Under the pieces are notes generated by a model, which worked only from the letters and a program-made list of their open reading frames with translations, did no database searches and was not told the origin of the DNA. A stretch of DNA of 64,000 bases from Polytrichum commune (Eukaryota > Streptophyta > Polytrichopsida > Polytrichales > Polytrichaceae), in NCBI GenBank assembly GCA_950295325.1, contig OX485806.1, forward strand, positions 50,031,169 through 50,095,168. The letters run 5' to 3'. This document shows, piece by piece, positions 15,334 through 64,000 of the stretch. A program made the translations under genes and the position numbers. Position 1 is the first letter of the stretch; each line of letters begins with the position of its first letter.

Positions 15334-16218
15334 TCCATAAGAATCGATCGACCCTCACTTGACCACACATAATCCTAGCAATTCCCCTCTTAATATTTTC
15401 ACTTGTCTTGGTGTGGTTATAATTTTTTTAGGAGGTGAGGAAAATAACCTGCAAGCCCACTTAGGTGAAAGAATCCCAATAGGGGATAGGCATGTTCATG
15501 TTAATTTTTTGGTTAAGTCGGAGCATCACCTCCGCACCTTCCCGCAAATTAACACTCACCACAATACCGATTGTGAGGGGGTGACCTTCCGAGTAGATTA
15601 TGTTAAAAGTCGAGGCTTCACCCTTCAACTTCTCACACCATCCACAATTCGGGAATTACCCTCTACAACGGATAACAACAATCACGAGTACAAAAGGCAT
15701 TCCTTAATTAGTTAATGAGTTCACTTTGAAGAAATAAACATACCTTGAGCAATCGCATCCCCCTGTGAGTTAGCACTCCCCTCAATCGTGACTCAATGTA
15801 ACAACACCATAAACTTTGTGAAATATTAATTTAATCTAGAGCATGAAATGACAACTCCCAAAACTTTGAGACTCACCCGAGGTGAGTGTCAAAGTTCAAT
15901 GTCCTAAGGTGAATTTACCCTCTAATGTTTTAATGAGCTACTCGGTTATAGGTTCCTTTTAAGTTCTTAGCAAATCCCCAAAAAGGTTGAGGACGTACCT
16001 TCGCCGCGCTCCTTCCTCAAAAATGAATTTGCGTAATTGACAATGCAATTCATTCCAAGGAATAGTTGAAATACAATGAATTCAAATGTAACCCAAAGAG
16101 AGAATACTTACCGAGTTTCGGGTGCTCCTTCCCTTCTCTCAAGTTTGTGTCTCCAATTTTTCCTAGTTGCCTCCAAGTCTCCTAGTCGCCTCCAAGTCTT
16201 GTAACTACCTTCCGCTTC

Positions 16219-32742: not shown

Positions 32743-32847
32743 TGTCATGTAAATAGTGATTGTGTGTCATTGCAGCTCAAGTACCAACTGCCACTAACAA
32801 ACAATACTAAACACACTAAAGTCATACATAAACAACACACCTCGACA
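32743..32847 (-). repeat. Short LTR, copy A
   Basis: 105 bp from TGTCATGTAAATAG to ACACCTCGACA, closely similar to copies B (33184-33288) and C (20290-20395). A 336-bp spacer (32848-33183) without an obvious primer site separates it from copy B. I found no common target duplication around A plus B. Confidence 0.6.
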
Positions 32848-33183
32848 GAGAAGGAAGAGAGTCAAACACTCATAAAAACTTTAATCTCTCTTCAAATGCA
32901 CACAATGAGTCAAGCTATCTCTCACTCCATTACGGAAGAATCCAAGAATGTAAGAAAAGGGAGAAAAAATCATAATTTATTGCAAACACATGCAATCTTC
33001 ACCTCACACAAGCTCTCTCCACACACTCACTCACAAAACTTGATTTGGCAAGAATGCCAAGCCAAGGAAGAGGCTCCTCACTTAGGAGCCTTTCTCTTCA
33101 CAACTAAGATTCATTCATCCAAATCTAAATGAATGAATCCCAACGGATAAGGTGCGGCCGTCGACGCCGCATACCACGACAGC
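32848..33183. other. Spacer between short LTR copies A and B
   Basis: 336 bp, starting with the purine run GAGAAGGAAGAGAG and ending with a GC-rich palindromic patch (GCGGCCGTCGACGCCGC) next to ATACCACGACA. A TRIM-like internal domain is possible, but no clear primer site or polypurine tract in matching orientation was seen. Confidence 0.35.
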
Positions 33184-33487
33184 TATCGTGTAAATAACGA
33201 TCGTGTGTCAATGCAGCTCGAGTACCAACCACCTCTAACAAACAACACTAAATATAGCAAAGTCACACATAAATAACACACCTCGATATACCCCCCCTCA
33301 ACTGACTATGGAGTCCCGCCAAACAGCTAAGACCAATGCCACTTCAAAAGGCATGGATAATGAAAGATTGTTCCACAACTAACTAGTGTGATGAATATCA
33401 TTCCAAGGAACTGTAGATTGGGTGCAATGTGAGCCCCATCCTTAATTGCCTCTGATGGTTGGCCATCATATTCCAAAGAATTAATTA
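33184..33487 (-). repeat. Short LTR copy B with adjoining 3' tail
   Basis: The LTR-like part 33184-33288 runs TATCGTGTAAAT to ACACCTCGATA, with both terminal TG/CA dinucleotides mutated. On the minus strand a polypurine tract (GTTGAGGGGGGGTA) directly precedes it, with the short coding tail SEAIKDGAHIAPNLQFLG upstream. The block matches 20290-20594. It could be the 3' end of the methyltransferase-bearing element to its right, but the match to copy C stops before any recognisable pol sequence, so this is unproven. Confidence 0.55.
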
Positions 33488-33575: not shown

Positions 33576-34082
33576 TTAAGTACGATTGGTGGAAGCACCA
33601 AGTACCGAAGATCCTCGACAACGACGACAACTCCACTGTCCAGATGGTAAAGAAGTCAAAGGTGGCCCCAAGCATATTATGTGCCAGCCACGTTGACACT
33701 TATCACACAAGAACATAGTAGCCATTCCTTTCTTCTTTCCACACACAAAACATGGAAGACCCTCTGGCACGACGGTCAGTTCAGGATGAACTGTACCCTC
33801 AATGGGTAGATGACATGGGGCATAATTTTTAGAATGCTCGCGATACTCCTTGCCATCCTTGCTTTCCAACAGCAACAAACCACTCGGCAACACCTCCTTC
33901 ACCCGAAGGATAGTGCGGCCTGCCCTGACATCCAATGTCATAGGCGCCTCACGTTGGAGATAAACATAATCCCCTTGCCGGAATCTCCACAACTGAGGTC
34001 GGTAAGCACCACTGCGAATGCGTGCATAACGCAAAGTATCACGGTGTTGAACAATGGACAAATTCTCCATGGCCATAGGCAT
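33576..34082 (-). pseudogene. Integrase C-terminal region fused to a PHD finger
   Basis: An open stretch of 168 codons. The first ~100 residues are the integrase C-terminal part (LWRFRQGDYVYLQREAPMTL, then LPSGLLLLESKDGKE). Residues ~111-155 (33618-33752) form a PHD-type zinc finger: CFVCG, LCDKC, GWHIIC, then LPSGQWSCRRC, giving the Cys4-His-Cys3 pattern. The frame then ends within about a dozen residues. Many plant gypsy elements carry a chromodomain at this place; a PHD finger is unusual. PHD fingers commonly bind histone H3 tails, so a role in choosing integration sites is a reasonable inference. This part is free of stops. Confidence 0.8.
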
Positions 34083-34860
34083 GGCCCTCTAGAAGAATTG
34101 AGCCCGCTCCTGGAAACACTCTGCCCAAATGTTTGGATCATCCAAGTCCACAACAGGAGCTAGCTTTTCCCAAATAGAACTCGGGAGTACAGGCTCACGT
34201 CCATACAACAACTGATACGGGCTCTAGGACACCAAAGAGGCATGCCTACTAAATCGATAGCCCATAGCACTCCAAGGTAACATGAGGTCCCAATCCTGAT
34301 GGCTTCCCGGAAGTAATCCATATTTCCTCAAACCACGTTTGGTTGTCTGAATAACCCGTTCAGCCAAGCCATCCGCCTCTAGATGATCCCGAGAGGTGGT
34401 GCGGTGATCTATGAGCGCCTTAGTGCACAACTCCTCAAAAACACCGTGGAACTCCCTCCTTTGGTCTATCAATACCTCAGCCGGTGCTCCAAAACGTGTC
34501 AACATACGATCCAAAAAAACGGTCGTGGCCAACTTTGCAAAATTTTGGGGTAAAGCAACAAGCTTAATCCACTTACTAAAATGTTCCACCATCACCAACA
34601 CGTACTTTGCTCCACGTGGCATGACAACCAACGGTCCCGCAAAGTACAGCGACCAACGGTAGCCCAATCTCATAATATATAAGGGCTGTAATTGAGGTGA
34701 CAAGGTGTTAAAGCTAGACTTGACCCGGTTACAAACTTCACATCTCCCAACATAAGTAGCCACCTGCTGATACATGCCAATCCACCAATATTGGCCACTC
34801 AACATCGAATGTATCTTGCGTATGCCAAAATGGCCAAGTTCCTCATGCACTTGTCACACC
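34083..34860 (-). pseudogene. Integrase core of the methyltransferase-bearing element
   Basis: The HHCC finger (HEELGHFG, then CEVCNRVK) is followed by the core: RWSLYFAGPL, VLIDQRREFHG and DGLAERVIQTTK. The first catalytic Asp is replaced by Tyr, the Gly after the second Asp by Arg, and the Glu is kept. A stop near 34221 interrupts the frame. The sequence continues as SPYQLLYGREPVLP, typical for gypsy integrases, and then has another stop near 34090. Confidence 0.85.
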
Positions 34861-34916
34861 AAGGAGGCCCTCTGATCCGGCCTAGGGACAATATGCCTTG
34901 TCCCATCCGACCACAA

Positions 34917-35681
34917 TCAAAATAACAAAACGTTCTCCCAACAAAACATTGTTATTCGATGTCCAATCCTATCCCTTTCCATTGCCGAGGTAGACGAAGG
35001 AAATGTCCCCTGCTGAAGCTTATGCAATACAGGAAGATCCTCCCATATATCCGCAATAGCTTGAGGTCGATCAGTCTCATCATCTGAGCCATGTATCGGA
35101 ACCTCAACAGATGCACCAGAAAATAAAGTGAAGTAAGCAGCCGCGTGCCAATTTGCAACCGCCTCTCGATCACAATCTCCATGCCACCTGGCCCCGATTA
35201 AGTCCTCATCCGAAGGACTTGGATTGCGTGAGAGTCCATTTGCATCCAGATTGGTAATTCCAACACAGTGCACCACCTCAAAGTCATACTTTTGGAGCAA
35301 TAAAGCCCACCTGGCAAGCTTGCTAGTAAGCTTATTTGACTCCATGAGCCACCGTAAAGGTTGATGGTCAGTCACCAAAGTAAAGCGCTGACTATAAAGA
35401 CATGGCTGGAAATGGGCGATAGCCCACACTGCTGCCAAAGCTTCTCCCTCATAGGACAAATAATTAGCCTCTACATTGTTGTTGCTTCGCGAAGCATAAG
35501 CAACAACATACTTCCGACCAACGTCGTCCTTCTGAATGGGAACTGCTCCCAACTCAATGAACTCCAGTCTATATGCAACTAGAAGGATTTGGAGACATAC
35601 GGACGTCGAAGCACTAGAGCCATACCCAGTCTTTGCTTCAAAATTTCGAATGCATGTTGTTGCTCCCGACCCCAGGTCCAA
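34917..35681 (-). pseudogene. RNase H region of the methyltransferase-bearing element
   Basis: Recognisable by YVVAYASRSN, LSYEGEALAAVWAIAHF, TLVTDHQPLRWLM and TNLDANGLSRNPSP, which follow the gypsy RNase H pattern with Glu and two of the Asp residues. The stretch carrying the first Asp (QLHIDWSS) lies in another frame, so a frameshift splits the domain from RT. The downstream part links RNase H to integrase. Confidence 0.8.
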
Positions 35682-36708
35682 GGTTGGTCTTTATTCATGA
35701 GAATGATGAGAGGCTTGACGATCAAGTTAAAATTCTTGATGAATCGTCGGTAGTAATTCGCCAAGTCCAAGAAAGCACGAAGTCTCGACACATTAATTGG
35801 TGCCGGGATCTTCTGCAAGGCGTCAACCTTAGTTTGTTGCACCCCAAGACCTCCCGGAATAATCATATGACCTAGGTATGCCAGTCGGTCATGGAAAAAC
35901 GTACACTTGCCATGGTGTAAGCGCAATCCTCACCGCTGCAAGCGTTCAAAAATGGCTTGCAGGTGCTTAACATGCTCTTGTGGTGTCCTGCTGAAGATGA
36001 TCACGTCATCAATGTAATATCGAGCAAATGACAAGCCAGAAAGGACCTGGTTCATCATTCTCTGAAACTCAGCATGTGCATTTTTTAGGCCAAATGGAAG
36101 AAACTTCCAATGGTACAGTTGATCCTTCCTATCCTGATCAACTCCCCAGAATGCGGTCTTCATCCGGTCTCCCACAAGTAATGGGAGCTGGTGATAGCCA
36201 GATCTTAAGTCCAAAGTGCTAAAGACTCGAGCAAATCCGAGGGCATCGAACAACTCCTCCAGGATTGGCATGGGATACCGATCTGACTTGGTCTTTCGGT
36301 TAATTGAATGGTAATCTCCGCACATCCGCTTCTTCGTCCAATTGCCAAAGATGTCCTTCTTCGATGGCATAACCGTAGCACAAGCATACTCCCCGTTGGA
36401 GACTTCGATTGGTCTCGTTGTCAAGAGCTCTCGGCAACAAGCCTGGAAGCCAATCCTCTAAGTGACACTGAGCCTGTAAGGTCTCCGAAAAATAGGATGG
36501 TTGTCCTCCAATTGAATGTGGATAGGTTTTCCTTTGTAGCCTTCAAGGTCTTGAAGACTAAAAGCAAAACACCCACAGTATGAGCGAATGAACGCCCGTA
36601 CCCTCCGTGTCTCAGCACTAGTGAGATAAGGGCCCAACTCCAATGGCCAATCAACAAACTTTGTGGTCTCCCTCTACACCAAAGAGGAACCACCTGATGT
36701 TGGCACAT
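35579..36708 (-). pseudogene. Reverse transcriptase of the methyltransferase-bearing element
   Basis: The N-terminal part (IQLEDNHPIFRRPYRLS, 36458-36643) precedes the palm: TKKRMCGDYHSINRKT, FSTLDLRSGYHQLP, KFLPFGLKNAHAEFQRMMN and the catalytic YIDDVIIFS. The thumb/connection follows (LAYLGHMIIPGGL). The catalytic triad is present, but frame changes near 36424 and 35926 break the gene. This RT is quite diverged from the remnant in elements 1 and 2, so it belongs to another lineage. Confidence 0.85.
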
Positions 36709-37065
36709 ACTCTAACTGCTACTCAGGAGAGGGAGCATCCACCATGCCCCCAGCCTCAGTGCCAGGAGAACATTCTAGTCTCCCTTCATTACCACCATCG
36801 GTTGATGATGAAGCCACCACTGGAGGCAGAGAATTGACTGAAAACATTTGTGGAAACATTCTCTACGCCTCCTTCTTCCCAAAATCGAAAGCTAAAGCAT
36901 CAAAAACCCGTTGAGCTCGAAGCTCTTCTATCACCTCCTATTTGAATCGAAAAATTCGTTTGGCTCCCTTAACCTTGGTTTCCCCTCCTTCCTCCATGGA
37001 TGTGGACCGTTGTGCCCCATGACCAGAGTCCTCTGCCCCTAGAGACAACAACTGGTCACCACAAT

Positions 37066-38046
37066 GCCTTTGCAATGCAAGGCATAAACCAACAGTCCAC
37101 ACCATGGTGCTAAAATCCATGGCTTGGCCCAACACGAACCGTCGTTGGCCCTCAGAAAGGCCATGAGTTGTTGTGGTTCCAGATCGGAATCCCATGGCAT
37201 GTTCCCGCTCATCGGCAGATGGTTCATAGTGGCTTTGAGTGTGAGCATCCCACACCATGCCAGGCCCTCAATCGTGGAATGCGAATGACTGTGGAAAAGT
37301 CATCAATGTCGGGAAGGCCCTCCGAGGTGCCCCCACTTTGTTAACCGATGCTAACGGAGGTAGATCATCTCGAACAACTGGCAAGGATGTCCGGTTTGGA
37401 TCCAATATGTCATCTACCTTCTGATCCGAAGGTAGAGGCACTGTAGGAAAGGCTGCAACAAATTGAAAAGCGGTGCGAGGTTGGTCCAAAACCACCGAGG
37501 GCGGTGTGAATACGAACCAAACCCCGCGGCATCCACACAAATGGGATCTCCAAGGTGCTGGCAAACATAATGTCTACCCTCCAACACCTTAGCTCGAAAG
37601 TCTCCCAATAGAGATACGTTCTCAAATATGTAGCCTGGAGGGGAAGGTTGGACAAACCACCACTGCATGAGCAGAATGAGGTCCCAGAAAATACCACACC
37701 TAGGATCCTCTTAACCTTGACCTGCTCTAGCACATCAATGACCTTGGCATGGCCATCCTGCGATCATTAAATCCACGGGACCCAACCTCCGTAAGTCTTC
37801 TTCACTGATAAGTGTAATATCACGAGGAAGACGTCCAAAGCACCCACGCATGGCAGTCAGTGATAACTGTTGTGGGTACAACACCATCAACCGGTGTAAA
37901 TGGTGACGAGCCGCACAAGTGGATACCGGGTTGGTATCCACATAAACATATTGTCAAACCGCGAGGCCAACCTTCAACACGGCCGCCAATCCTATACCGA
38001 TGCCCCCAAACAGCTCCACCAAGGTAATTCCCTCGTCTAGTGGATG
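37066..38046 (-). pseudogene. Cytosine-C5 DNA methyltransferase domain within a retrotransposon
   Basis: Canonical motifs occur in canonical order on the minus strand. Motif I is LVELFGGIGIGL (37987-38022). Motif IV is AGWPCQGH with the catalytic Cys (37739-37762). Motif VI is FENV with the catalytic Glu (37615-37623). Motif VIII is SHRPRWFWTNL (about 37480-37515). A short target-recognition region follows, then motif IX-like DEREHAMGF and motif X-like RRFVLGQAMDF. The domain is about 330 residues, the size of a compact methyltransferase with little regulatory N-terminus. Motifs I to VIII share one frame apart from stops at 37954-37956 (TGA where CGA is likely), 37735-37737 and 37711-37713. 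A frameshift follows motif VIII and another stop lies at 37265. It sits between protease and RT. In life it would have added 5-methylcytosine to DNA. Confidence 0.85.
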
Positions 38047-38054
38047 CCATGGTA

Positions 38055-38991
38055 TGTCGCGCACCTCTCCATGAGGAGTGCCCGCAACACCATGGGCACA
38101 AGGGGGACCCCAGAGTGACACCCGGGATTTGTGGCGCCATTGGTGAGAGGGCCCAAGTACTCTTGGTGTGGGTGAGGCCCCGGGCGTTGAGAACGCCTCT
38201 CACCCACGAGGACTAAGAGTCATGAGGGTAAGGCCATAAGTTATGAGTAGCTTATGGCGGTGGAATTCTAGAATGCTAAGGAACACCTCAATCGGAGGTG
38301 CTAGCTAGGAGATATGGCCATTTGAGTGGGGCACTGTCCCGGGACAGCACCTTGGGACATCAGTGACCTGGGAGTGGTGCCCGGGACTGCCAAGGTTTGA
38401 AGAGCCATAACTTCCTCCATACTTGCCCGAATGGGGCAAGTGAGGAGTTCATCGGCATCTACGCAAAGAGTAGGTGACGATAGAGTGGTCGCTTAATAGC
38501 ATCAGACATCATATGTAGAAGTTATGGTCGTCTGAAGCTGCTGGGGGGGTTCTAGCCCCAGCGGCTAAGGGAAAATGTCCACTTGGCCCCAACCCTTGTA
38601 GAGAGACAAAAGGATACTTGATGGTGGGGTAGGGGCCCCGCCCAAAGTCCTAGAGGCTTATATGGGTGAGGCGGCTTAGCCGACCGACCCCCCCGGAGCA
38701 TACTTGGCAATGTGCTCCGGGTAGTTGTAGTGTTGTTTTGGCAACACGATGATCAACTCAAGAGTGGACTTCCATGGATGGAAGTCCACCTTAGCCATTG
38801 GCTACCTACTAAGGGGAGAGTCCCGAATGCATGTGTAGGAGGGTTTGGTGACCTAGCCATGAGCTTGAAGGTCCGCGGTTTTGGGAGCTAACCATGCATG
38901 TGCGTGGGATGTGCAGGTTAGCGCTCGTGGCACTTGCTAGGTTGGAAAGGCGGTCAAGCTAAGTGAAGGAAAACTAGCAAGGGTTGCGACA
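38055..38991 (+). repeat. Solo LTR of a second LTR-element family
   Basis: A 937-bp stretch from TGTCGCGCAC to GGGTTGCGACA, with inverted termini TGTCGC/GCGACA. It is flanked by the 5-bp duplication TGGTA (38050-38054, 38992-38996). It separates the protease from the methyltransferase of the surrounding minus-strand element and has no open frame. The first ~150 bp recur at the right edge of the window (63852-64000). Strand is given as the one reading TG to CA; the true orientation is unknown. Confidence 0.85.
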
Positions 38992-39098
38992 TGGTATGGG
39001 ATGTGCCAACGCTGTTTGGTGTCCGGTATGACTGGTGTCATCAAACGCAAAGAGAGGACAATGTCCTCACAAATCTGGAACAACTCTTGAGAATCGCA

Positions 39099-40424
39099 TC
39101 AGGGAGGAAGAGGATCCTTGGGATGGCGCATTAACAAATCCTTAGGTGATATCACCCGCTGGTCCTTAGTGCTCCCCATGAATACTAGTGACTCCTCCAA
39201 TAAGATTGAGCCACATGTCAATGTGTAAATAGTAACACCACATCCAAAGACCATGGATAATGGTGCTATGATCGCGGCAACCGCGAATGCCACAGGAATA
39301 AGCTCTCTCTTGCCGTCGCTAGCCGACCAGTTTGGTTGGATCCACGCCTCTTTGGTCCAGTTATCTAAAACAAAACCGAGAGGGTAGAGGGCCTGCTGAC
39401 CAACTAAAATGTCGTAGTTGGTCGCATTCGTCATCGCGCACCTAAGAAGAAGAGGTGCAGGTGGATCTCCAAGTTTCATTTGGAAGGTAAGGAATAATGG
39501 ACGTGATGATGGTGAATGGGCAAGGAACCAAGTCCTCGGCTGTCAACCTCAGCTCCTCGGCAAGCCTCTTGCCGATCATGATTGGCTGGGCCCCTGAATC
39601 CATCATCACATAATGGGGAGCAACCTAAATGGCGTTGACCCCAGTCCAACCAACTACTAGAATGTCGGTGTCATTCACCATGTGTACGACGCCTGGTTGA
39701 ATGCCTCGGCGCTCGCAGGCAGGTCTAGTAGCTACATCGGACATGTAAGTTGCTCCTATGGCCATTGGTAAGCCATGAGATGTAGAAGGCCCCTCACCAT
39801 GAAAGATGTGTGCATCGAAAGACGCAATGGCCTCCGCTGCAAGCACGAATCCTGAGCCACTTTTAGGGAAAGTACGAATACCTTCCTTTCCAAAATCTTA
39901 CTTGCAAGGTGGAACACCTTAGCAAGTTGGATATCTAACGATGACAACTCCATCGCCGTGAACAATGGTGAGTGTAACACCTTTGACGCCAAGATATTCA
40001 CCATGTTGGACGAAGAATTCGTCGCCTCCGTGCTTGAATGTCGACCACTAACAGATTGGACAGCATCTGCCAATCCAGAAGAGTGCGGCAGTCATGCCTG
40101 GCCAATATGATCTGCGGGACCATTGTCCCAAGCTCTCAAGATCACCACGAAGTCCCCTATAGTTGGAGGTGTGGCTCGTGACACGGATTGAGCACGTGAC
40201 ACGGCAACAGAGCTTACCACCTCTCCCACAGCTCCGAGCATATAGTAATATGGTGTGGAGGAGCTAGCCTTAGCTCCGGATGAAGCCGAAAGGGTCAACA
40301 TTTGGCCAGACAAAGCCAAACTCTTGAATTTCTCCTCCAAGTCACCAAGTTTCGCCTCCATCGTTTTCTCCTGTACGGAGAGCGGTCGATGGAGAATGAA
40401 GCAGTGGTCCACGGTGATAGGCAT
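39099..40424 (-). pseudogene. Gag remnant and aspartic protease of the methyltransferase-bearing element
   Basis: The protease is recognised by VMMDSGAQPIMIGKRLAEELRL (active site DSGA at 39589-39600) and, after a frame change, by NATNYDILVGQQALYPLGF. Upstream, 39625-40424 is a gag-like or linker region with a short coiled-coil-like start (MEAKLGDLEEKFKSLALSG) and no visible zinc knuckle or capsid motif. The gag part is short and probably truncated at the right edge. Several stops and shifts separate the pieces. Confidence 0.65.
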
Positions 40425-40600
40425 TTTATTGACATGTCAAGTACGCCATTGAAATGTCGAGCATTTTTTTTGTGACAAACAACAACTATTTAGTTGTACC
40501 ATCAATTTGTACTACATACATTTTATATGGATATACATAAATATTTCTATATATGTAGAAATGATGAATAATCGCGTCCATGCCCTTCACCTCTATGCCA

Positions 40601-41692
40601 TTACACATTTTTTGCAACACCCGCAAGCTCAAGAAGTCGCATTACCTTATTGTAGCTAAATGTCGGTGCATGAATGAACTTGTCAATGGCATAGTCAACC
40701 TTGCACAAATACATGAAAACGTAATACAAATGCTTGCATGAAACCCATTGACCCCTCGTTCCCACTGCCAAAGACAACATTTTCGCAAAGTCCGGGCAAG
40801 TGCATTGCGGAATATATGCAATGGAGACAAGGTATGTCTTCTTCTCTTTGGAAACTATGGTTATGATGCATCCATATCCAGGGTATGGAATGGGAGTCAC
40901 ACCAACCACATAGTACCCATCCATGTGTGATGCGCTCTCCCATTTATTCATGTGCTCTGATAATGGTGTTGCCATGTTCCGTCGAACTGCCTTGGAAAAC
41001 CGTGTATTTGGATGCACATCTGGGTTTGGAGGAACACGGAAATGTGAACGAGGGATGGGGAGGTTTGTCATTATTCTCAATTGACGACGTGGTGACAATG
41101 CCTCTTTCTGTTGCAATTGAAACCCAACATCTTCCAATGCAAACACCTCCTCCCGTGTAAGGTTTGTATTAACCTTCACCGGCCACACCTTAGGGAGATT
41201 TGGCCAATCAAACACCCATTTCTTCTTGCTCCCCTTCACACATCGATTTATGTCATCTGCACAAAACCAAAAATATGTCGGAACGTGGTTGTTGGAACGG
41301 TATTCCTTTTTCATGCCTATGTATGTTGGTGCAAGTGTGCCATGTGTATTTTTCCTAACTTTAGTCCAACATGGATGTCTAGTATTTGCCTGCAATGCTT
41401 GACACTCTTTCTTGGACGGATAAAGCAATCGTGAAATACACCATTGGGATTTAGGACACTCTGATTCCAAGACATTAGTGGTGTGTGACACTACATTCTC
41501 ATCACGCTTCAAGGATTCATCTATACGTGCCCTCGTTGACCTTGTATTAGGGTGAGGGATGGAGTAGTTCACTTTGTCAGGACGATGAGAATCATACTCA
41601 GATCTAGGTGGTAAGTCTAGTTTCCTCTTGGTTGATCCAAACAACTCAGAGCCCTCCAGTGCATAATTCCTTGCATTAAGATCCTCTGTCCC
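40601..41692 (-). pseudogene. SWIM zinc-finger transposase-like protein, C-terminal part
   Basis: An open frame of about 360 codons. The SWIM-type finger reads PQCTCPDF, then SCKHLYYVFMYLCKVD (Cys-x-Cys, then Cys-x-His). Upstream are long Lys-rich and Trp-containing stretches typical of this plant multi-copy family. The gene continues on the far side of element 2 at 51507. The reading frame passes smoothly across the 5-bp target duplication, so element 2 broke a frame that was open here. Confidence 0.75.
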
Positions 41693-43335
41693 TGTGAGGC
41701 CAAACCCCCCACCCTTAAGCGTCCGTAGTCCGAGTAGTGGGTTTGGGCTCACATTCCTCCGCGGTATTGGATTTGGACTTGGATGAGTCCATAGTGCAAG
41801 GTTCACCCTTCAAGTGGTCTTGGATTTAACTAGCTCCTTCATAAACCCAGCTCCTTCATAAACCCAGCTTCTTAGCTTCTAACTAAACAAACCCAGCTCC
41901 TTCATGAACCCAGCTCCTTAGCTTCTAACTAAACAAACTCAGGTCCTTCATAAACCCAGCTCTTTACTTTCTAACTAAACAAACCCAGCTCCTTCATAAA
42001 CCCAGCTCTTTACTTTCTAACTAAACAAACCCAGCTCCTTCATAAACCCAGCTCCTTCATGAACCCACAACTTTGTAGTTGTAATCCCCAACTACCTCAC
42101 TAATTATTCAAGCCCTTAACTAATCTTCCTACCTAATTTCCCTAATTCTACTAACAACCCCTTTCTAATCACACAATTCTTCTCTAATCCTAAAATCCTA
42201 AAATCCTAGAGAGGAGAGGGGGAGAGAGAATTTCCTAACTTCACTAAGACTAACTAATCCACACAAGTATATTTTTGCACTCATCACAACATCAAGTGCT
42301 CAACTCTTAAACATGGAACTTGCAACCACGTGTATTCAAAACATGAACTTTAAGTACCACAAATTGGAATCATGAATTAACTTTAAAATCCTTCACGTCA
42401 ACACTAATTCTACCAAGAGGTCAAGCCCTCTTCAAGGCTAACAAGCCTTGGCTCTCAAACTAAAAACTAAGCACACACATGTGCTCCAATATGGCTTCCC
42501 ACACCCACACTTATAACTCGTGGGGTGCCTTGGAGCACAAAGGAAAGAGAGAGGATGAGTGAGGGAAGAATGAGGGATTATATAGTAAGCTTGAGGGGGT
42601 GAGCACCCTCAAGGCTTACGATAAGCCCTTGAGATTTCCTCCTACTTAGTAGGCGCCAATCCTATCTTCTAAGTCTTCCTCCCTCAAATGATCAACAAGG
42701 ATCCTAATTCGAACATTTAACTAGCCTTGGCTTTCTACCTACCACACTTTACCAAACTTGGGATGCTTAACTAGCCTTGGCTTTCTACCTACCACACTTT
42801 ACCAAACTTGGGATGCTTCAACCCAAACTTAGCCTCCTTCGCTTTCCGCCGCCATAACTTTCTCCCCTTACTTTCCCAAATCGTCGCTCACCACTTAATT
42901 CAAACCACGATGCTTAACTCGTGATTTGATTGGTGCTTTGAGAATTTGCTTATCCTCCACCTTGCATTCTTCCTTGGGCCTTCCCCATTAAGTGGCCATG
43001 ATGAGGTGGTCCACTTGTGCGCTCCATGTGATCCTCCATTCATCCCAATTCGAATGCACTTGCCTCTTGAGTCACTTTGGTTGTCTCCATCCATTTGTAC
43101 TAGCCTACTCACTAACTACTCAATCCAAGTTCTCCTTACCTATCCTCATTCACTCAAATCCTTCCGAAGGTAAAAACACAATAACAACTCACATCCTAGC
43201 CTCTTACAACATGGTACTTCTAAGACTAACATTTCACTCTTTTTATATTTTTGTGAAGTAACATGCTACTTCAAAGTGCATCAACTAACGTTTCAAGGGT
43301 CTAAGACTAAATGTGGGCACCCTTTTGGGCTCACA
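41693..43335 (-). repeat. 3' LTR of element 2
   Basis: A 1643-bp LTR matching 49864-51506. Its left portion carries about ten variants of AAACCCAGCTCCTTCATAA (41832-42066), where the LTRs of element 1 have unique sequence plus three or four units. Confidence 0.95.
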
Positions 43336-43396: not shown

Positions 43397-46300
43397 TCAA
43401 GCTCGGTATTCCTTACATCTACTTCCCGATGTACGGGTAGGAAAGAGCTCACCATTCAACGTTTCCAATTGAATTGAATTATTAGGAAAGACCTCATAGA
43501 CAAGGTAAGGTCCTAACCATACCGCATTGAATTTCGCCGGAAATTCAAGCTTTCGTGCGTCTTGAATCATGACCATCATTCCCGGTGTTAGGGCCCTTCT
43601 CTTATGTCGTTTGTCGAAAGTAATCTTTCTCCTTCTTTGGATTGCCTCAATATGTTGAGCCGCCATTCTCCTCCCTTCGTCAAGTGCTTCCAAATCGGTT
43701 AGTCGATTTCGTAAGGATTGACTTTCGGTAAGTCTCGTACTCACGGCCACCCTAAGTGACTCGACTTCATATTCGATTGGTAGTGTCGCTTCAAGACCAT
43801 AGACTAAGGAAAATGGTGTAGCACGCGTAGTTACCTTATAGGTTGTACGGTATGCCCAAAGTGCCGCCGTTAGTTTCGTATCCCAATCCCGCTTCGAGTC
43901 TATAACCGTCTTGCGTAGTATACTCACCAAAATTCCGTTAACCCTTTCCGTTTGTCCATTGGTTTGTGGGTGGTAGGGAGTAGTCTTCCGGTGATCAATT
44001 TTAAATTTCTCTGTCATCTCTCGAATCAAGTCATTCAAAAAGTGAGTACCCCTATCGCTTACTAGGATCTTCGGCACCCCGAACCGCGAAATTATGTTTT
44101 CGTACATAAATGTTGCCGCGTGTTCCGCCGTGTCGGTCTTCACCGCTTTGGCTTCCGCCCACTTGGTGAGGTACTCGGTTGCCACCACAATATATTTCAT
44201 TCCTTTTGAAGATTGGGGATGGACCTCACCCACATAGTCGATGCCCCATTTTTCGAAAGGAATTAAGGGTAATGATACATGTAAAGGCATCTCCATTCTA
44301 AGGTCGTCTCGGGCATACCGTTGGCAAGCGTCGCATTTCCTTACGTAGTCATGGGCGTCCTTAAATAGTGTAGGCCAAAAGTAGCCCGCTCTAAGTATTT
44401 TTTGCCCGGTGAGTTGACCCGAGAAGTGACCGCCGCAAGCGCTATCGTGGCAAGCGATTAAAATCGCTTCAACCTCCGTTTTTGACACGCATCGTCGTAA
44501 AATACCATCGGACCCCCTTCTAAACAACCTATGGCCCACTACAACAAATTGCCTACTATTTACCCTCACCTTCCTTCTCTCTTCTTTTGTCCACTCTTTG
44601 GGCAACTTGTGGGTTGTTAGAAATTCCACTATGCCCGCATACCACTCCGGTGTAGAAGTGACCACAAAGAGGCTATCATCTACTAACATATCATTTACCG
44701 GATTTTTTCCTATCTCCTCCGACAACCTAGACAAGTGGTCCGCTTGTAAATGCATACGACCCGGTTTATATTCCACCGTGTAGTCGAATTCTTCTAATAA
44801 CAAAACCCACCTAGCTAACCTACCACTTAACTCCGCCTTGTTAATTAGATACTTGATAGCCATGTGGTCAACAAAAAATACAACCGGGTTGCACATGAGG
44901 TAATGCCTAAACTTTTTAACGGAAAACACCATGGCTAGGCACTCCCTCTCCGTTGTAGAGTAGTTTCTTTCGGCGGGGGTCAATTGCTTACTCGCATAAG
45001 CTATAGGTTGATCCTTCTCTTTTTCTCCCGTTGCTTGACAAAGCGCACTCCCTATTGCCACATTACTAGCATCACAATAGACGTGAAAAGGTTTACCACA
45101 ATTGGGTGGTATCAACACCGGATAGGTGCTCAACCTATCCCGCAATTCCTCAAAGGTTTTTTGACAAGCATCCGTCCACTCGAATTTGACATCATTTTTT
45201 AGCAAATGGGTAATGGCCACCGCTATCTTTGAAAAATTAGGAATAAGTTCCCGGTACCATCCCACATGTCCTAACAACTTAGAGATCCCCTTGGAATTGG
45301 TTGGAGTTGCCAAGTCGCTTATGGCCGCAATCTTATCCGGATCGGGTTCTCTACCTTTCTCACTAACAACATAACCCAACAACACTCCCTTATTCACTCC
45401 CAAAAATGTCTTATCCGGGTTTAATGCTAACCTCATCTTCCTACACCTAACCAATGCCTCCCTAACACAATGTAGGTGATCATCCACATACCGCCAATCC
45501 GCTTCCGACACATGTGCTTGCTCCTCTTTGTTCCGATACCAATCGGAAGGCACATTGGGGTAATCTTTCACATCTTGACCTACAACTATCCCCGTAGACG
45601 TGGTCTTGAAATGTAAAGGCTCCTCCAATTTCGATGACTCAATAATCACATCCTCCTCTTGAGTCCCATCTACATGAATTAAACTAACCTCACCCTCTTC
45701 CACGTCATCTACCCAAGGTGTTAACCCACCGCTAACCCACTCTTCCTCGGTGAGCACCTCACATGGCTCCAACAATGAGCCCTCTCCTAAACTAACACTA
45801 GGAAATTCACTCCCTAAGCCTACTTGGTGAAATGTAACCATCACATCAACCTCGGACTCGGGGTACTCCCTTAGCCATTGGGCATAATCCCCATTATCCC
45901 CATAATTGTAAAAATTAGGACCTAGACTTCCCGAGCCCGAATCTATAACAACCCTTTGACCTTCGGGATGGACGACTCCCACCAATGCCTTGCCAATCTC
46001 ATTCTCGTTTAAGTCATCAATTTCCTTCTCCAATGGCAAATACATCTCCTTCTTCATCCATCCTTCTAATGAACCAATGGACACTATGACCCTATTACCC
46101 TCCGGACCATAAGTGATGGATGGTTTAGGTCCACCCCAATTGACCATAGCATTCGCCATCCGCAACCAAGGCCTACCTAGCAAAATGGGGAAGGTGTCCT
46201 TGTTGGAGTGCATTTTAATGACATGGAAGGTGACCAAGTACTCCTCACCTCCCGTAGTCATTCTACAATCCTTGATCATCCCCAAAGGCGTAGTCGAACT

Positions 46301-48955
46301 TTGATTTGCCATATTTATGACCAAAGGTGAAGGCCCCGTGAGTCCAAGTCCCAATTTTTTCATAGTATCCTCCGGTAGTATATTTAGACTACTCCCTCCG
46401 TCGACTAGCACATTAGGAACCACCTTATCTACTATAACAACTTCTATTTCTATAGCTTTCACGTCTCTTCCACCTTGTGATTGGATCCTAGCGGCTATTT
46501 TAGCTTTCACCTTCCTCATCCTCTTGTGTACCGGCATTCCCTCCTTTAATGTTTTCCTTGCCGTGGGTGAAATTTCCAATAGTTGGCCGAAAGTAATATC
46601 CGCCTTGAGTGTACTAAGGTCCGCCCACAAGTCGTACCCGGTAGATCTTTCCACCTTAGAATTACCCACTACGTCGAATTCGTCTACGGGAACCCCCGGT
46701 CCTTCCCATTCACCCACATCGCTATTATCCAAGTCATGTACCGCATTAGTCCTCTCCCTATCTTGTAAAATTATATTTTCCCTCTCCACATCCTTAGTAG
46801 CTCTTCTAGCTACCCTATCCAACTCGGAGAGATTAATCTCTTCATCCGAAGAGTAATTTCCTTGCTCTCCTATTCCTACCTCCAACGGGGCATCCCCTCT
46901 CCTAGCCCTAGTAGTTACCGCTAGTGCAGGTGCTTCTTCAACCACACCCTTACCCTTCACTAACTCATATGTAATAGCATTGGTGTGAGGAGGCCATTGA
47001 CTTTGCTCCTCTCCAATTCTCGTTGGGAGAGGAAGCATGTCATCACATGTGGCCTCCAACACTCCATCCATGAACCTAACATCTTGGGAGTTAGATGGTC
47101 CCGGATCCGTTGGAGGCGCTTGTCTCCCGTTACTACCATTAGGTGGAACTCCTTGTCTATTTTGTATTGGAATGTAACCGGTTGTAGTTTGCAAGCCCGC
47201 CGGTGGATGAAAAGTTTGCCTAGCATTACTATGGTCATAGTATAAGTTAGGTGGCCTAAGTTCATTGGCCGGTACTCCTTGTGGCCTAGCACCTCGCATA
47301 TTATCCCTTGCTTGTTGTTGTGGATTAGCCACCGGGTAAGGGACATTAATTATTTTGTCCGGTTGGCGACACGTATCCGAGGGATGACTTCCTCCACAAT
47401 TGCTACAATTAAACTCTTGACCTTCGGACCAACATTGTCCTTGAGCGTGCCACCTTCCACAAAAGGGATGAAATTCCTTCTTCTCTAAATTTTGGCCACC
47501 TTGCCCTCTAGGTTGTGGTCCTCTATTGCTTCCATTTCCATAGTGAGGTGGCGCTTGACCTCGTTGATTTTGTTGAGGTGGGTTACCGTTTCCTCTTTGG
47601 TCACGGTTTTGTCCACTTCTACAAAATTGACGCGTGTGGCCCGGTTGGCCACATTGGACACACCATAATCCGGAAGAATGCCTACCCGACTCAACCGGGG
47701 GTGGAGGCCCCGGTTGTTGACTCCGGATCATTAATGACATTTGATCCGTGAGGCTTTGCATTTGTTTTATCATAGCCTCTTGGAATCCTAGTTGGCTAGC
47801 ACCTAGTCTTCTCTCAACCTCCTCCAAGTGTGGATCCGTTCTAGGGGCCGGTAGTGCCAAAAGAGGTGCCGGTTCCCTAACCGCTAAAGGTCGGGGACCG
47901 GTGTCCACAATGGCATATGGAATTTGGTTCTCATACTTAGCGGGTTCTACCGCTACCACCCTAGGGCGTATGGGGATGAATTGTGGGATCAATTCATCCT
48001 CCCTTCTCCATAGCCTTTCGTGATCTTTATCCAAGTTTTCAATATCTCTAGCCGCACGCTTGGCATCCGCCAAGGTCAAGGGATTCCTTTCTAGAACACC
48101 CCTAATAGTTCCGGACTTAAAAAACCCTTGAATGAAAAATTGCTTTAGCGTGTCGTCGTTGAGCATGGTACCCACAAATCTAGTGCACACTAAATCAAAC
48201 CTCCTAATGTAAGCCGAAATTTCTTCCTCCCTTCCTTGCTTCAATGACGACAATGCCCTTAATGCGGTACTTTGACCCACTTCCGGCCTAAATTCGTTAA
48301 GAAACTCCCTTTGTAATTGTTCCCATCCCCTAAAATGTCCCTCGGCATGATCCCGATACCATTCATAGGCTTCCCCCTCTAGAGTGGTAGGAAACCACAC
48401 TAACCAATAACCCGGGTCGGTTATGAGGAAGCTAGCCAACCGTTCGATATACCGTTCCATGTGCCGAGAGGGGTCCTCATCCTTGGTCCCATAAAATTTA
48501 GGGAGATGAGATGGCATATCCATCGCCGCTAAATTTTGTGGAACCACAATTGGTAGGCCTCTTGGCCTAACCAATGGGTCTATTGGAGGTATAGGAGGTA
48601 TGGGCGGAATTGGGGGTATGGGTGGTGGATCCATCCCCCGTTCCTCGGCCATGGTGACCGGTGAACTATTCAACAATCCCCTATCAACTTCTACCGGGAA
48701 TTCTTCTCTAAGTGTGTAATTTTCCGAAGAAGTCTCACCACTCAATTTGGAGGGAGTGATCTCCTCTTCAAGTTGAGCTCCGAGTTCTAAGGTGTCTAGA
48801 ATTGACCTAGTCCTAGGTTCGACGTTCAAACAACTCTCTATTCTAACATTATCTTGTTCTAATCTATCACTGATTTTAGAGGACCGCCTCTTTCGAGTAG
48901 ATTTCTCTAGTCCTACTATCAAACTTGGTTTTTGTGAGCGAGTCCTACCTTGCAT
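43397..48955 (-). CDS. Gag-pol polyprotein lacking the reverse transcriptase core, element 2
   Basis: An open frame of 1852 codons whose product appears identical to that of element 1. It has the same gag, zinc knuckle, protease VDGGSS, RNase H and integrase, and the same in-frame loss of the RT core (junction YVDD near 45479-45490). The base changes I noticed inside the frame (near 45841 and 47465) are silent. The protein should be able to assemble, process and integrate, but it cannot copy RNA by itself. Helper RT from a full-length relative is required if the family is active. Confidence 0.95.
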   Translation of the reverse strand: MQGRTRSQKPSLIVGLEKSTRKRRSSKISDRLEQDNVRIESCLNVEPRTRSILDTLELGAQLEEEITPSKLSGETSSENYTLREEFPVEVDRGLLNSSPVTMAEERGMDPPPIPPIPPIPPIPPIDPLVRPRGLPIVVPQNLAAMDMPSHLPKFYGTKDEDPSRHMERYIERLASFLITDPGYWLVWFPTTLEGEAYEWYRDHAEGHFRGWEQLQREFLNEFRPEVGQSTALRALSSLKQGREEEISAYIRRFDLVCTRFVGTMLNDDTLKQFFIQGFFKSGTIRGVLERNPLTLADAKRAARDIENLDKDHERLWRREDELIPQFIPIRPRVVAVEPAKYENQIPYAIVDTGPRPLAVREPAPLLALPAPRTDPHLEEVERRLGASQLGFQEAMIKQMQSLTDQMSLMIRSQQPGPPPPVESGRHSSGLWCVQCGQPGHTRQFCRSGQNRDQRGNGNPPQQNQRGQAPPHYGNGSNRGPQPRGQGGQNLEKKEFHPFCGRWHAQGQCWSEGQEFNCSNCGGSHPSDTCRQPDKIINVPYPVANPQQQARDNMRGARPQGVPANELRPPNLYYDHSNARQTFHPPAGLQTTTGYIPIQNRQGVPPNGSNGRQAPPTDPGPSNSQDVRFMDGVLEATCDDMLPLPTRIGEEQSQWPPHTNAITYELVKGKGVVEEAPALAVTTRARRGDAPLEVGIGEQGNYSSDEEINLSELDRVARRATKDVERENIILQDRERTNAVHDLDNSDVGEWEGPGVPVDEFDVVGNSKVERSTGYDLWADLSTLKADITFGQLLEISPTARKTLKEGMPVHKRMRKVKAKIAARIQSQGGRDVKAIEIEVVIVDKVVPNVLVDGGSSLNILPEDTMKKLGLGLTGPSPLVINMANQSSTTPLGMIKDCRMTTGGEEYLVTFHVIKMHSNKDTFPILLGRPWLRMANAMVNWGGPKPSITYGPEGNRVIVSIGSLEGWMKKEMYLPLEKEIDDLNENEIGKALVGVVHPEGQRVVIDSGSGSLGPNFYNYGDNGDYAQWLREYPESEVDVMVTFHQVGLGSEFPSVSLGEGSLLEPCEVLTEEEWVSGGLTPWVDDVEEGEVSLIHVDGTQEEDVIIESSKLEEPLHFKTTSTGIVVGQDVKDYPNVPSDWYRNKEEQAHVSEADWRYVDDHLHCVREALVRCRKMRLALNPDKTFLGVNKGVLLGYVVSEKGREPDPDKIAAISDLATPTNSKGISKLLGHVGWYRELIPNFSKIAVAITHLLKNDVKFEWTDACQKTFEELRDRLSTYPVLIPPNCGKPFHVYCDASNVAIGSALCQATGEKEKDQPIAYASKQLTPAERNYSTTERECLAMVFSVKKFRHYLMCNPVVFFVDHMAIKYLINKAELSGRLARWVLLLEEFDYTVEYKPGRMHLQADHLSRLSEEIGKNPVNDMLVDDSLFVVTSTPEWYAGIVEFLTTHKLPKEWTKEERRKVRVNSRQFVVVGHRLFRRGSDGILRRCVSKTEVEAILIACHDSACGGHFSGQLTGQKILRAGYFWPTLFKDAHDYVRKCDACQRYARDDLRMEMPLHVSLPLIPFEKWGIDYVGEVHPQSSKGMKYIVVATEYLTKWAEAKAVKTDTAEHAATFMYENIISRFGVPKILVSDRGTHFLNDLIREMTEKFKIDHRKTTPYHPQTNGQTERVNGILVSILRKTVIDSKRDWDTKLTAALWAYRTTYKVTTRATPFSLVYGLEATLPIEYEVESLRVAVSTRLTESQSLRNRLTDLEALDEGRRMAAQHIEAIQRRRKITFDKRHKRRALTPGMMVMIQDARKLEFPAKFNAVWLGPYLVYEVFPNNSIQLETLNGELFPTRTSGSRCKEYRA

Positions 48956-49840
48956 TCCATAAGAATCGATCGACCCTCACTTGACCACACATAATCCTAG
49001 CAATTCCCCTCTTAATATTTTCACTTGTCTTGGTGTGGTTATAATTTTTTTAGGAGGTGAGGAAAATAACCTGCAAGCCCACTTAGGTGAAAGAATCCCA
49101 ATAGGGGATAGGCATGTTCATGTTAATTTTTTGGTTAAGTCGGAGCATCACCTCCGCACCTTCCCGCAAATTAACACTCACCACAATACCGATTGTGAGG
49201 GGGTGACCTTCCGAGTAGATTATGTTAAAAGTCGAGGCTTCACCCTTCAACTTCTCACACCATCCACAATTCGGGAATTACCCTCTACAACGGATAACAA
49301 CAATCACGAGTACAAAAGGCATTCCTTAATTAGTTAATGAGTTCACTTTGAAGAAATAAACATACCTTGAGCAATCGCATCCCCCTGTGAGTTAGCACTC
49401 CCCTCAATCGTGACTCAATGTAACAACACCATAAACTTTGTGAAATATTAATTTAATCTAGAGCATGAAATGACAACTCCCAAAACTTTGAGACTCACCC
49501 GAGGTGAGTGTCAAAGTTCAATGTCCTAAGGTGAATTTACCCTCTAATGTTTTAATGAGCTACTCGGTTATAGGTTCCTTTTAAGTTCTTAGCAAATCCC
49601 CAAAAAGGTTGAGGACGTACCTTCGCCGCGCTCCTTCCTCAAAAATGAATTTGCGTAATTGACAATGCAATTCATTCCAAGGAATAGTTGAAATACAATG
49701 AATTCAAATGTAACCCAAAGAGAGAATACTTACCGAGTTTCGGGTGCTCCTTCCCTTCTCTCAAGTTTGTGTCTCCAATTTCTCCTAGTTGCCTCCAAGT
49801 CTCCTAGTCGCCTCCAAGTCTTGTAACTACCTTCCGCTTC

Positions 49841-63851: not shown

Positions 63852-64000
63852 CGTCTCACACTTCTCCATGACAAGTGCCCAAAACACCATGGGCACACAA
63901 GGGAACCCGAAGTTACACCCAGGACTTATGATGCCATTGGTGAGAGGGCCCAAGTAATCCTAATGTGGGTGAGGGCTTTTGGCATTGAGAACGGCTCCCA
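63852..64000 (+). repeat. Partial LTR of the 38055 family, cut by the window edge
   Basis: From CGTCTCACACTTCTCCATG onward it aligns with the start of the solo LTR at 38055 (TGTCGCGCACCTCTCCATG). It shares CACCATGGGCACA, GCCATTGGTGAGAGGGCCCAAGT and GTGGGTGAGG. The first T is C here. The rest lies outside the window, so whether it is a solo LTR or part of a full element cannot be seen. Confidence 0.75.

Follow-up and report, generated by a model that had tools for sequence, protein, structure and literature searches.

A Dnmt3-like DNA methyltransferase domain resident in a Ty3/gypsy retrotransposon family of the moss Polytrichum commune

A decayed element in the window

The window (the whole 64,000-nt stretch analyzed, positions 50,031,169 to 50,095,168 of Polytrichum commune contig OX485806.1) includes a decayed C5-cytosine methyltransferase (MTase) domain, inside a dead copy of a Ty3/gypsy element. 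The recognizable parts of this copy all lie on the minus strand, and are listed below from 5′ to 3′ along the element. Amino acid (aa) positions are those of ORF1 in an open copy from the same genome, L009; the motif numbers follow the usual scheme for C5-cytosine MTases.

39852..40472, minus: remnant of ORF1 5′ of the protease (tblastn and blastn; aa 421-623)
39024..39843, minus: protease region of ORF1, in pieces 39843-39496 and 39500-39024 (tblastn; aa 644-930)
38057..38989, minus: unrelated 933-bp insertion splitting ORF1, protease from MTase
36728..38055, minus: Dnmt3-like MTase domain, decayed, with the C-terminal tail of ORF1 (tblastn; aa 940-1364 of 1366)
38022-37996, minus: MTase motif I, LVELFGGIG
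37761-37738, minus: MTase motif IV, AGWPCQGH
37629-37615, minus: MTase motif VI, IFENV
37518-37477, minus: MTase motif VIII, GSYSHRPRWFWTNL
37210-37187, minus: MTase ERE..MGF stretch
37132-37112, minus: MTase motif X, LGQAMDF
36713..36721, minus: in-frame UAG followed by CAGUUA (UAG CARYYA), at the ORF1/ORF2 junction
33579..36718, minus: ORF2, decayed, with reverse transcriptase (RT), RNase H, integrase zinc finger and core, and PHD finger
33183..33286, minus: repeat B1, about 107 bp, at the 3′ end (blastn)
32848..33175, minus: repeat A2, whose partner A1 is missing here (blastn)
32743..32847, minus: repeat B2, the 3′ end of the element (blastn)

The MTase motifs run in canonical order from 38022 to 37112, and the catalytic PCQ and ENV are both present. 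This I-to-X order on the minus strand, already read in the initial annotation, is borne out by the coordinates and by tblastn alignment to the MTase of a further open genomic copy (L007), which is identical at 145 of 200 residues to 38055-37459 (285 bits, E = 1e-89) and at 110 of 159 to 37528-37052 (E = 4e-65). Overall the window pieces align collinearly, with 61-73% identity, to an open copy of the same genome, and the likeness is beyond chance. Four stops or more and one change of frame interrupt the reading frame. A proposed Pfam search with PF00145 was divided in outcome: open genomic copies scored over the cut-off, while six of seven window pieces gave no match at E up to 1 and the seventh, the motif IV piece (37953-37738), only a weak one under it (12.8 bits vs. 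22, E = 0.08).

The MTase had also been placed between an aspartic protease and an RT on the same strand, and it does have remnants of the protease region upstream and RT (RVT_1, E = 3.8e-19) downstream. In the protease region the sequence MMDSGAQ can be seen by eye; a Pfam scan of the piece at 39099-39542 gave no match, and aspartyl-protease models stay under their cut-offs in the open copies L009 (E = 0.0026) and L012 (E = 0.0012) as well. The spacer between protease and MTase was considered as a native part of the element and rejected: it is the 933-bp insertion, with ends TCGC/GCGA and a 9-bp target duplication, CATACCATG, at 38998-38990 and 38056-38048. The insertion may be MULE-like. Pieces related to it occur within or next to three copies of the MTase element (L040, L051, L067) and at window positions 63859-63997. 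Beyond 40472 the 5′ part of the window copy is gone, including the gag region, the first CCHC knuckle and repeat A1. ORF2 has Pfam matches to RVT_1, RT_RNaseH, Integrase_H2C2, rve and PHD, in the RT-RNase H-integrase order that defines Ty3/gypsy elements, and is 83-86% identical to the ORF2 of L009 (tblastn).

Three other features of the window deserve mention. A 402-aa open frame (40601-41809, minus) lies just upstream of the 5′ truncation; it has a SWIM-like CxCx..CxH by eye, and a Pfam scan at E up to 0.1 matched nothing in it. A second fragment of the MTase element, at 20591-20290 (minus), consists of 3′ UTR and B1 and stops at the end of B1, with no A2-B2 behind it. Finally, another Gypsy element, without an MTase, is present in two copies (43397-48976 and 9775-15354, minus) that are 99.96% identical over 5,580 bp, the first of them holding a 1859-aa open frame; this is a second recently active family.

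Organization of open copies

Two open copies were read, L009 from subfamily A and L012 from subfamily B. In both, ORF1 (1366 and 1386 aa, respectively) has the order gag region-CCHC-protease-MTase. PF00145 is over cut-off in these frames and the protease and zinc-knuckle models are below it (E 0.001-0.004); the Pfam gag models gave no match, and the label “gag region” rests on position and on the CCHC knuckles. ORF2 (1048 and 1047 aa) has the order RT-RNase H-integrase-PHD, with RT, RNase H, integrase zinc finger and core, and PHD all over their Pfam cut-offs. A single stop separates the two ORFs, which are in the same frame. Intact relatives with protease, MTase and RT in one frame had been anticipated; as an uninterrupted frame this is not what the open copies have, a UAG splitting MTase from RT.

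The UAG is followed by CARYYA at 36 of 42 aligned ORF1/ORF2 junctions (44 places tried, the window included); the other six comprise four UAG with an altered hexamer, one UAA and one AAG. With equal base frequencies, CARYYA would follow a given stop by chance 1 time in 512. UAG CARYYA is the type I readthrough signal of tobamo-, beny-, and pomoviruses, as described in PMC5382211. The element shares with these viruses the sequence of the signal and a downstream ORF in frame with it, but has it between the gag region-protease-MTase and the RT of a retrotransposon. In type A elements the first Met of ORF2 is at residue 117, 11 residues before the RVT_1 match, and type B has one at residue 14. The two types share 86.5% identity over residues 21-116, with dN 0.096 and dS 1.5; these residues evolve as protein and so are translated, by ribosomes arriving from upstream, which favors readthrough. 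RT is thus probably a readthrough product, and the MTase is probably produced in the amounts of Gag. Among database relatives, the proteins P0001, P0002, and P0004-P0022 end 57-141 residues past the MTase (some may be cut by contig ends) and Marchantia P0025 ends 75 residues past it; others, including P0145, P0180, and Marchantia P0144, are predicted as a single protein that spans MTase and RT with no stop between them.

The ends of the element were read in six copies with fetched flanks. Five of these (L009 and L011-L014, with flanks L017-L026) do not have identical long terminal repeats at the two ends, but a split layout A1...B1-A2-B2: the 5′ end carries repeat A (333-440 bp) and the 3′ end B-gc-A-B, with B of 105-107 bp. 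Terminal repeats were looked for in the sixth (L010) and not found. By eye, all five elements end in TGTC..GACA and are flanked by 4-bp target duplications (gatg, ggtt, gaag, gaag, tctt), TG..CA ends and duplications of this length being as expected of a DDE integrase. A G-rich tract directly precedes B1, and there is a palindrome, GACAGCTGTC, at the B1-A2 junction.

Split direct repeats are found in PAT-type elements as well. The likeness of the present element to the DIRS/PAT group lies in its A1...B1-A2-B2 repeats; unlike them it has an integrase core and 4-bp target duplications, and Pfam found no tyrosine recombinase families in the translated ORFs scanned. A pol of Gypsy type, with an integrase and 4-bp target duplications, is here combined with DIRS-like split repeats. 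At the RNA level B-A could amount to an ordinary LTR, the integrated form then being a circular permutation of the LTR form.

Distribution in the Polytrichum commune genome

The source assembly (GCA_950295325.1) totals 407.8 Mb in 64 contigs, nearly all of it in seven contigs of 42-78 Mb. Mosses of the Polytrichaceae have n = 7. In a genome search with PF00145, the best 123 of 353 candidates were scored and all 123 were over the cut-off, with L007 at 47.1, L009 at 46.1, and L012 at 45.5 bits (cut-off 22); many of these 123 lie in an uninterrupted reading frame (1366 or 1386 aa). A search with the PHD-end piece of the window, for which the best 150 of 565 candidates were scored, found many in frames of 1047-1048 aa. 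The genome has hundreds of candidate copies of the MTase element. Contig C4, with 14.5% of the genome, has 42 of the best 150 listed PHD-end hits (binomial p = 1.4e-5); it may be a repeat-rich or a sex chromosome.

A systematic sample was drawn by taking every fourth of the 150 PHD-end hits, for 37 places, or 36 after removal of L015; for each, 2.3 kb was fetched, spanning the expected meeting point of MTase and RT. More than 100 aa of MTase are found upstream of RT in 31 of the 36, 26 of them with protease in the same stretch. The MTase is partial in two (48 aa in L041, 86 aa in L054), and absent from the 2.3-kb stretch in three (L045, L052, L064); RT is present in two of these three stretches, and the third has no RT either. 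The MTase is therefore part of the element. The initial annotation had described it as carried by a plant Ty3/gypsy element, which these counts and the open copies over the PF00145 cut-off confirm for a resident domain; it had also pointed out that copies lacking the MTase would mean a chance insertion, and 31 of the 36 sampled copies have the MTase instead.

Class of the methyltransferase

Over the whole domain, the best matches among solved structures are DNMT3A (44.3 bits), DNMT3B (41.5), and NtDRM (38.4), followed by 3g7u (33.1), HaeIII (25.3), and HhaI (24.5). For motifs I-IV alone NtDRM (4onj) leads with 33.0 bits, ahead of DNMT3A and HhaI at 28.5 each; sequence similarity is thus a modest guide to class. 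Plant DRM enzymes have a Dnmt3-related catalytic core in common with the element MTase, but their motifs are rearranged, VI-X preceding I-IV: in each of two host DRM loci (L065 and L066, 52% to NtDRM), the ENV exon comes before the I-IV exon. The element MTase has its motifs unrearranged, I to X, in the window and in the other copies, which rules out an origin from DRM. In comparison with solved structures and the two host DRM loci, it classes as Dnmt3-like and not as a captured DRM. No host Dnmt3 gene was found; one candidate for it, L067, is another broken copy of the element. An alignment of 26 relatives shows no variation at the C and Q of PCQ or at the E of ENV.

Age, selection, and decay

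Within each of five copies A1 and A2 are 99.3-100% identical, so these are young insertions and the family has moved recently. A complete open MTase is found at 20 of 51 loci (18 distinct places; 47 loci have a match), and 17 of these 20 keep PCQ, ENV, and HRPR. Among the 190 pairs compared (57 outside the bins, and two places counted twice), the median dN/dS of the MTase is 0.61 in 25 pairs with dS of 0.02-0.1 and then, over further bins, 0.26 (29 pairs), 0.20 (24), and 0.13 (55, with saturated dS). A falling ratio is the pattern predicted for a selected active lineage that leaves neutral dead copies, and by this measure the MTase is under purifying selection. Between subfamilies A and B, where dS is near or past saturation, dN/dS is 0.142 for the MTase, 0.141 for the gag region, 0.111 for the protease, and 0.04 for RT. 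Estimated selection on the MTase is then about that on the gag and protease regions, and weaker than that on RT. ORF1 is 55% and ORF2 87% identical between the subfamilies; separate histories of the two ORFs need not be invoked, dS being near or past saturation in both.

Relative to L009, the window copy has C-to-T changes at 17.8% of CG, 19.9% of CHG, and 9.7% of CHH sites; A/T-to-G/C transitions stand at 9.0% and transversions at 4.6%. In older copies generally, the window's included, C-to-T at CG and CHG exceeds that at CHH (the MTase element family alone was compared); young copies show little or no C-to-T excess. In the window the excess fits CG and CHG methylation after insertion. It is as compatible with silencing by the host as with self-methylation, and its presence in older copies speaks against lasting escape from methylation.

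Relatives and phylogeny

An MTase-bearing LTR/Gypsy element, KnitGypsy-Dnmt3, has been described from Klebsormidium nitens (de Mendoza et al., 2018; PMC5890265). Three protein searches for relatives of the present element gave 45, 86, and 2852 matches (the best 120 of the 2852 listed). Green holders among the matches listed are Marchantia polymorpha, Calypogeia fissa, Closterium, Klebsormidium nitens, Chara braunii, Haematococcus lacustris, and Myrmecia bisecta, with the MTase present in some, not all, of their listed proteins; those of this kind from Marchantia and Closterium were already in public databases as unnamed predictions.

A survey of domain order in 241 proteins and the four ORFs of L009 and L012 distinguished two placements of the MTase: before RT or after the protease (placement 1: bryophytes, Closterium), and between RNase H and integrase (placement 2: for example, Haematococcus P0106). 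P0046-P0129 form a large set of elements with mostly placement 2, one of them from Haematococcus lacustris. A Gypsy polyprotein with this type of MTase, P0094, is in a record labeled as a Minisyncoccia MAG. Minisyncoccia are bacterial, and misbinning of a contig from a eukaryote is the probable explanation.

A careful RT tree was built from 42 sequences picked by hand. In it the MTase-bearing elements, together with 12 sequences whose upstream part was not seen, form one clade (support 100/99), and those with placement 2 one clade (100/100). The Polytrichum commune elements are near those of Marchantia and Calypogeia. Three K. nitens pol proteins (P0170, P0202, P0219) fall inside the MTase clade, the streptophyte subclade having support of 97/89; their listed models have no MTase, and they may not be the published copies. 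The MTase-less P0235 and P0240 are outside the clade; Myrmecia P0228, whose protein ends after RNase H, could be of either kind. A quicker RT tree, with 82 of 165 eligible sequences, has the same MTase clade (SH-aLRT 100), with two kinds of exception, all absent from the careful tree: the MTase-bearing P0126, on a long branch, is outside it, and Haematococcus P0205 and P0208, in which no MTase was detected, are inside it, their RT reaching to near the protein ends, which are possibly cut short. A tree of the MTase itself (82 sequences) also groups placement 2, except for P0037 just outside; it is rooted on DNMT3A only, and so cannot test the number of captures. The simplest history that these trees, built without host Dnmt3 genes, suggest is one capture of a Dnmt3 and one later domain move. 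It differs from the independent acquisition of the MTase in the K. nitens lineage proposed in the 2018 paper (PMC5890265). Retrotransposon-borne MTases look older and commoner in green plants than has been thought, judging from relatives that extend from green algae to liverworts.

Proposed mechanism and alternatives

On balance, we lean toward a joint reading in which the window holds a dead copy of a recently active Ty3/gypsy family with a resident Dnmt3-like MTase, a leaky UAG, methylation of cDNA within the particle, and a single early capture. Most ribosomes would stop at the UAG, giving MTase in Gag-like amounts that could enter the particle, and a small share of readthrough would supply RT and integrase. 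In the particle, the MTase would add methylation de novo to the cDNA of the element ahead of its insertion by integrase, and new copies would arrive already methylated. The element might benefit in that its cDNA would look like host DNA and its own expression would be damped after arrival. The MTase would have been captured once, early in the green lineage, and then kept by selection. We infer the readthrough, the Gag-level dose, packaging, cDNA methylation, and the benefit to the element from sequence. As reported in PMC5890265, the Dnmt3 borne by a dinoflagellate DIRS element carried out de novo CG methylation in yeast; KnitGypsy-Dnmt3 gave no methylation there, a result its authors judged inconclusive.

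Other explanations can be set against parts of this reading. The window by itself might suggest a chance insertion of the MTase, or a captured fragment of a host gene, in one degenerate copy, given that the copy is broken, that the 933-bp insertion adjoins the MTase, and that PF00145 matches only below cut-off; the same MTase position in 31 of 36 sampled copies rules out chance insertion, and with open MTase copies, purifying selection, and relatives in other species this explanation retains a negligible probability. Expression of ORF2 by re-initiation or from a separate mRNA, with CARYYA incidental, would make use of the Met at residue 14 in type B and at residue 117, 11 before RVT_1, in type A, or might depend on a non-AUG start. 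It is very unlikely in view of the translation of type A residues 21-116, upstream of the first Met, and the retention of UAG and CARYYA in both subfamilies. Methylation of RNA by the MTase, or a structural or nucleic-acid-binding role of the domain within Gag that involves no methylation of DNA, would suit an element whose genome travels as RNA, and also the lack of activity of KnitGypsy-Dnmt3 in the yeast assay (PMC5890265). The joint presence of PCQ, ENV, and HRPR in 17 of 20 open loci, the invariant catalytic residues in the 26 relatives, and DNMT3A and DNMT3B as best solved relatives over the whole domain make this quite unlikely.

Action in trans, on host chromatin or other elements instead of the element's own cDNA, would be favored by a Gag-level dose and perhaps by the PHD finger that follows the integrase, and the genome-wide CG methylation of Symbiodinium has been discussed in such a light (PMC5890265); placement in the Gag-protease product argues for a particle protein, the K. 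nitens methylome is described as land-plant-like (PMC5890265), and we consider action in trans unlikely. Independent uptake of Dnmt3 by bryophyte, Klebsormidium, and chlorophyte elements would account for the two placements, and trees without host Dnmt3 genes leave room for it. It seems rather unlikely beside a single RT clade (100/99) for the MTase-bearing elements, with P0235 and P0240 outside, and the grouping of placement 2 in the RT tree and, but for one sequence, in the MTase tree. A more specific version of the joint reading, in which methylating Gypsy elements are one ancient green-plant clade from a single Dnmt3 capture, its streptophyte branch supplying MTase at Gag dose via a leaky UAG so that insertions are born methylated, is possible, though doubtful.

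Relation to known elements, and significance

The principle of a Gypsy element with its own Dnmt3 is already known from KnitGypsy-Dnmt3; what is new is the land-plant setting, the Gag-side MTase with a leaky-type stop, and the wide clade. The two elements have in common an unrearranged Dnmt3-type MTase in an LTR/Gypsy element with purifying selection (PMC5890265), a DIRS-like repeat layout with Gypsy domains (PMC5890265, Fig. 4 legend), and, for the K. nitens pol proteins, the same RT clade (100/99). They differ in that the present one is in a land plant with hundreds of candidate copies, has its MTase in ORF1 with gag region and protease, before the leaky-type UAG, where KnitGypsy-Dnmt3 has it in the Pol polyprotein ORF (PMC5890265), and had its TG..CA ends and 4-bp target duplications seen directly. 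The dinoflagellate elements SymbioDIRS-Dnmt3 and SymbioLINE-Dnmt (PMC5890265) are likewise retroelements with a DNA methyltransferase, but of the DIRS and LINE classes, whereas the present one has Gypsy RT and a DDE integrase.

No published land-plant element of this kind was found in the open-licence PubMed Central literature, in keeping with the earlier remark that no well-described land-plant case was known. The available text of the 2018 paper (PMC5890265) makes no mention of Marchantia, readthrough, or PHD. A 2022 review of land-plant transposons gives DIRS elements as known only from green algae, and has in its available text no mention of an MTase-bearing element (PMC9033089); a 2025 paper cites the 2018 paper for Dnmt3 in streptophyte and dinoflagellate retrotransposons (PMC12344493).

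The RT tree bears on the question of whether the K. nitens capture was independent. If the enzyme is active, a mobile element would supply its hosts' own silencing mark, at Gag dose and before integration, and the question of why a transposon carries a methyltransferase could be put to the test in land plants. With its hundreds of copies, a bryophyte would be a handier bench for this than dinoflagellates, and moss methylation mutants exist (PMC6453930). If the more specific version of the joint reading is true, a host genome carrying such copies by the hundred would have de novo methylation delivered by its parasites.
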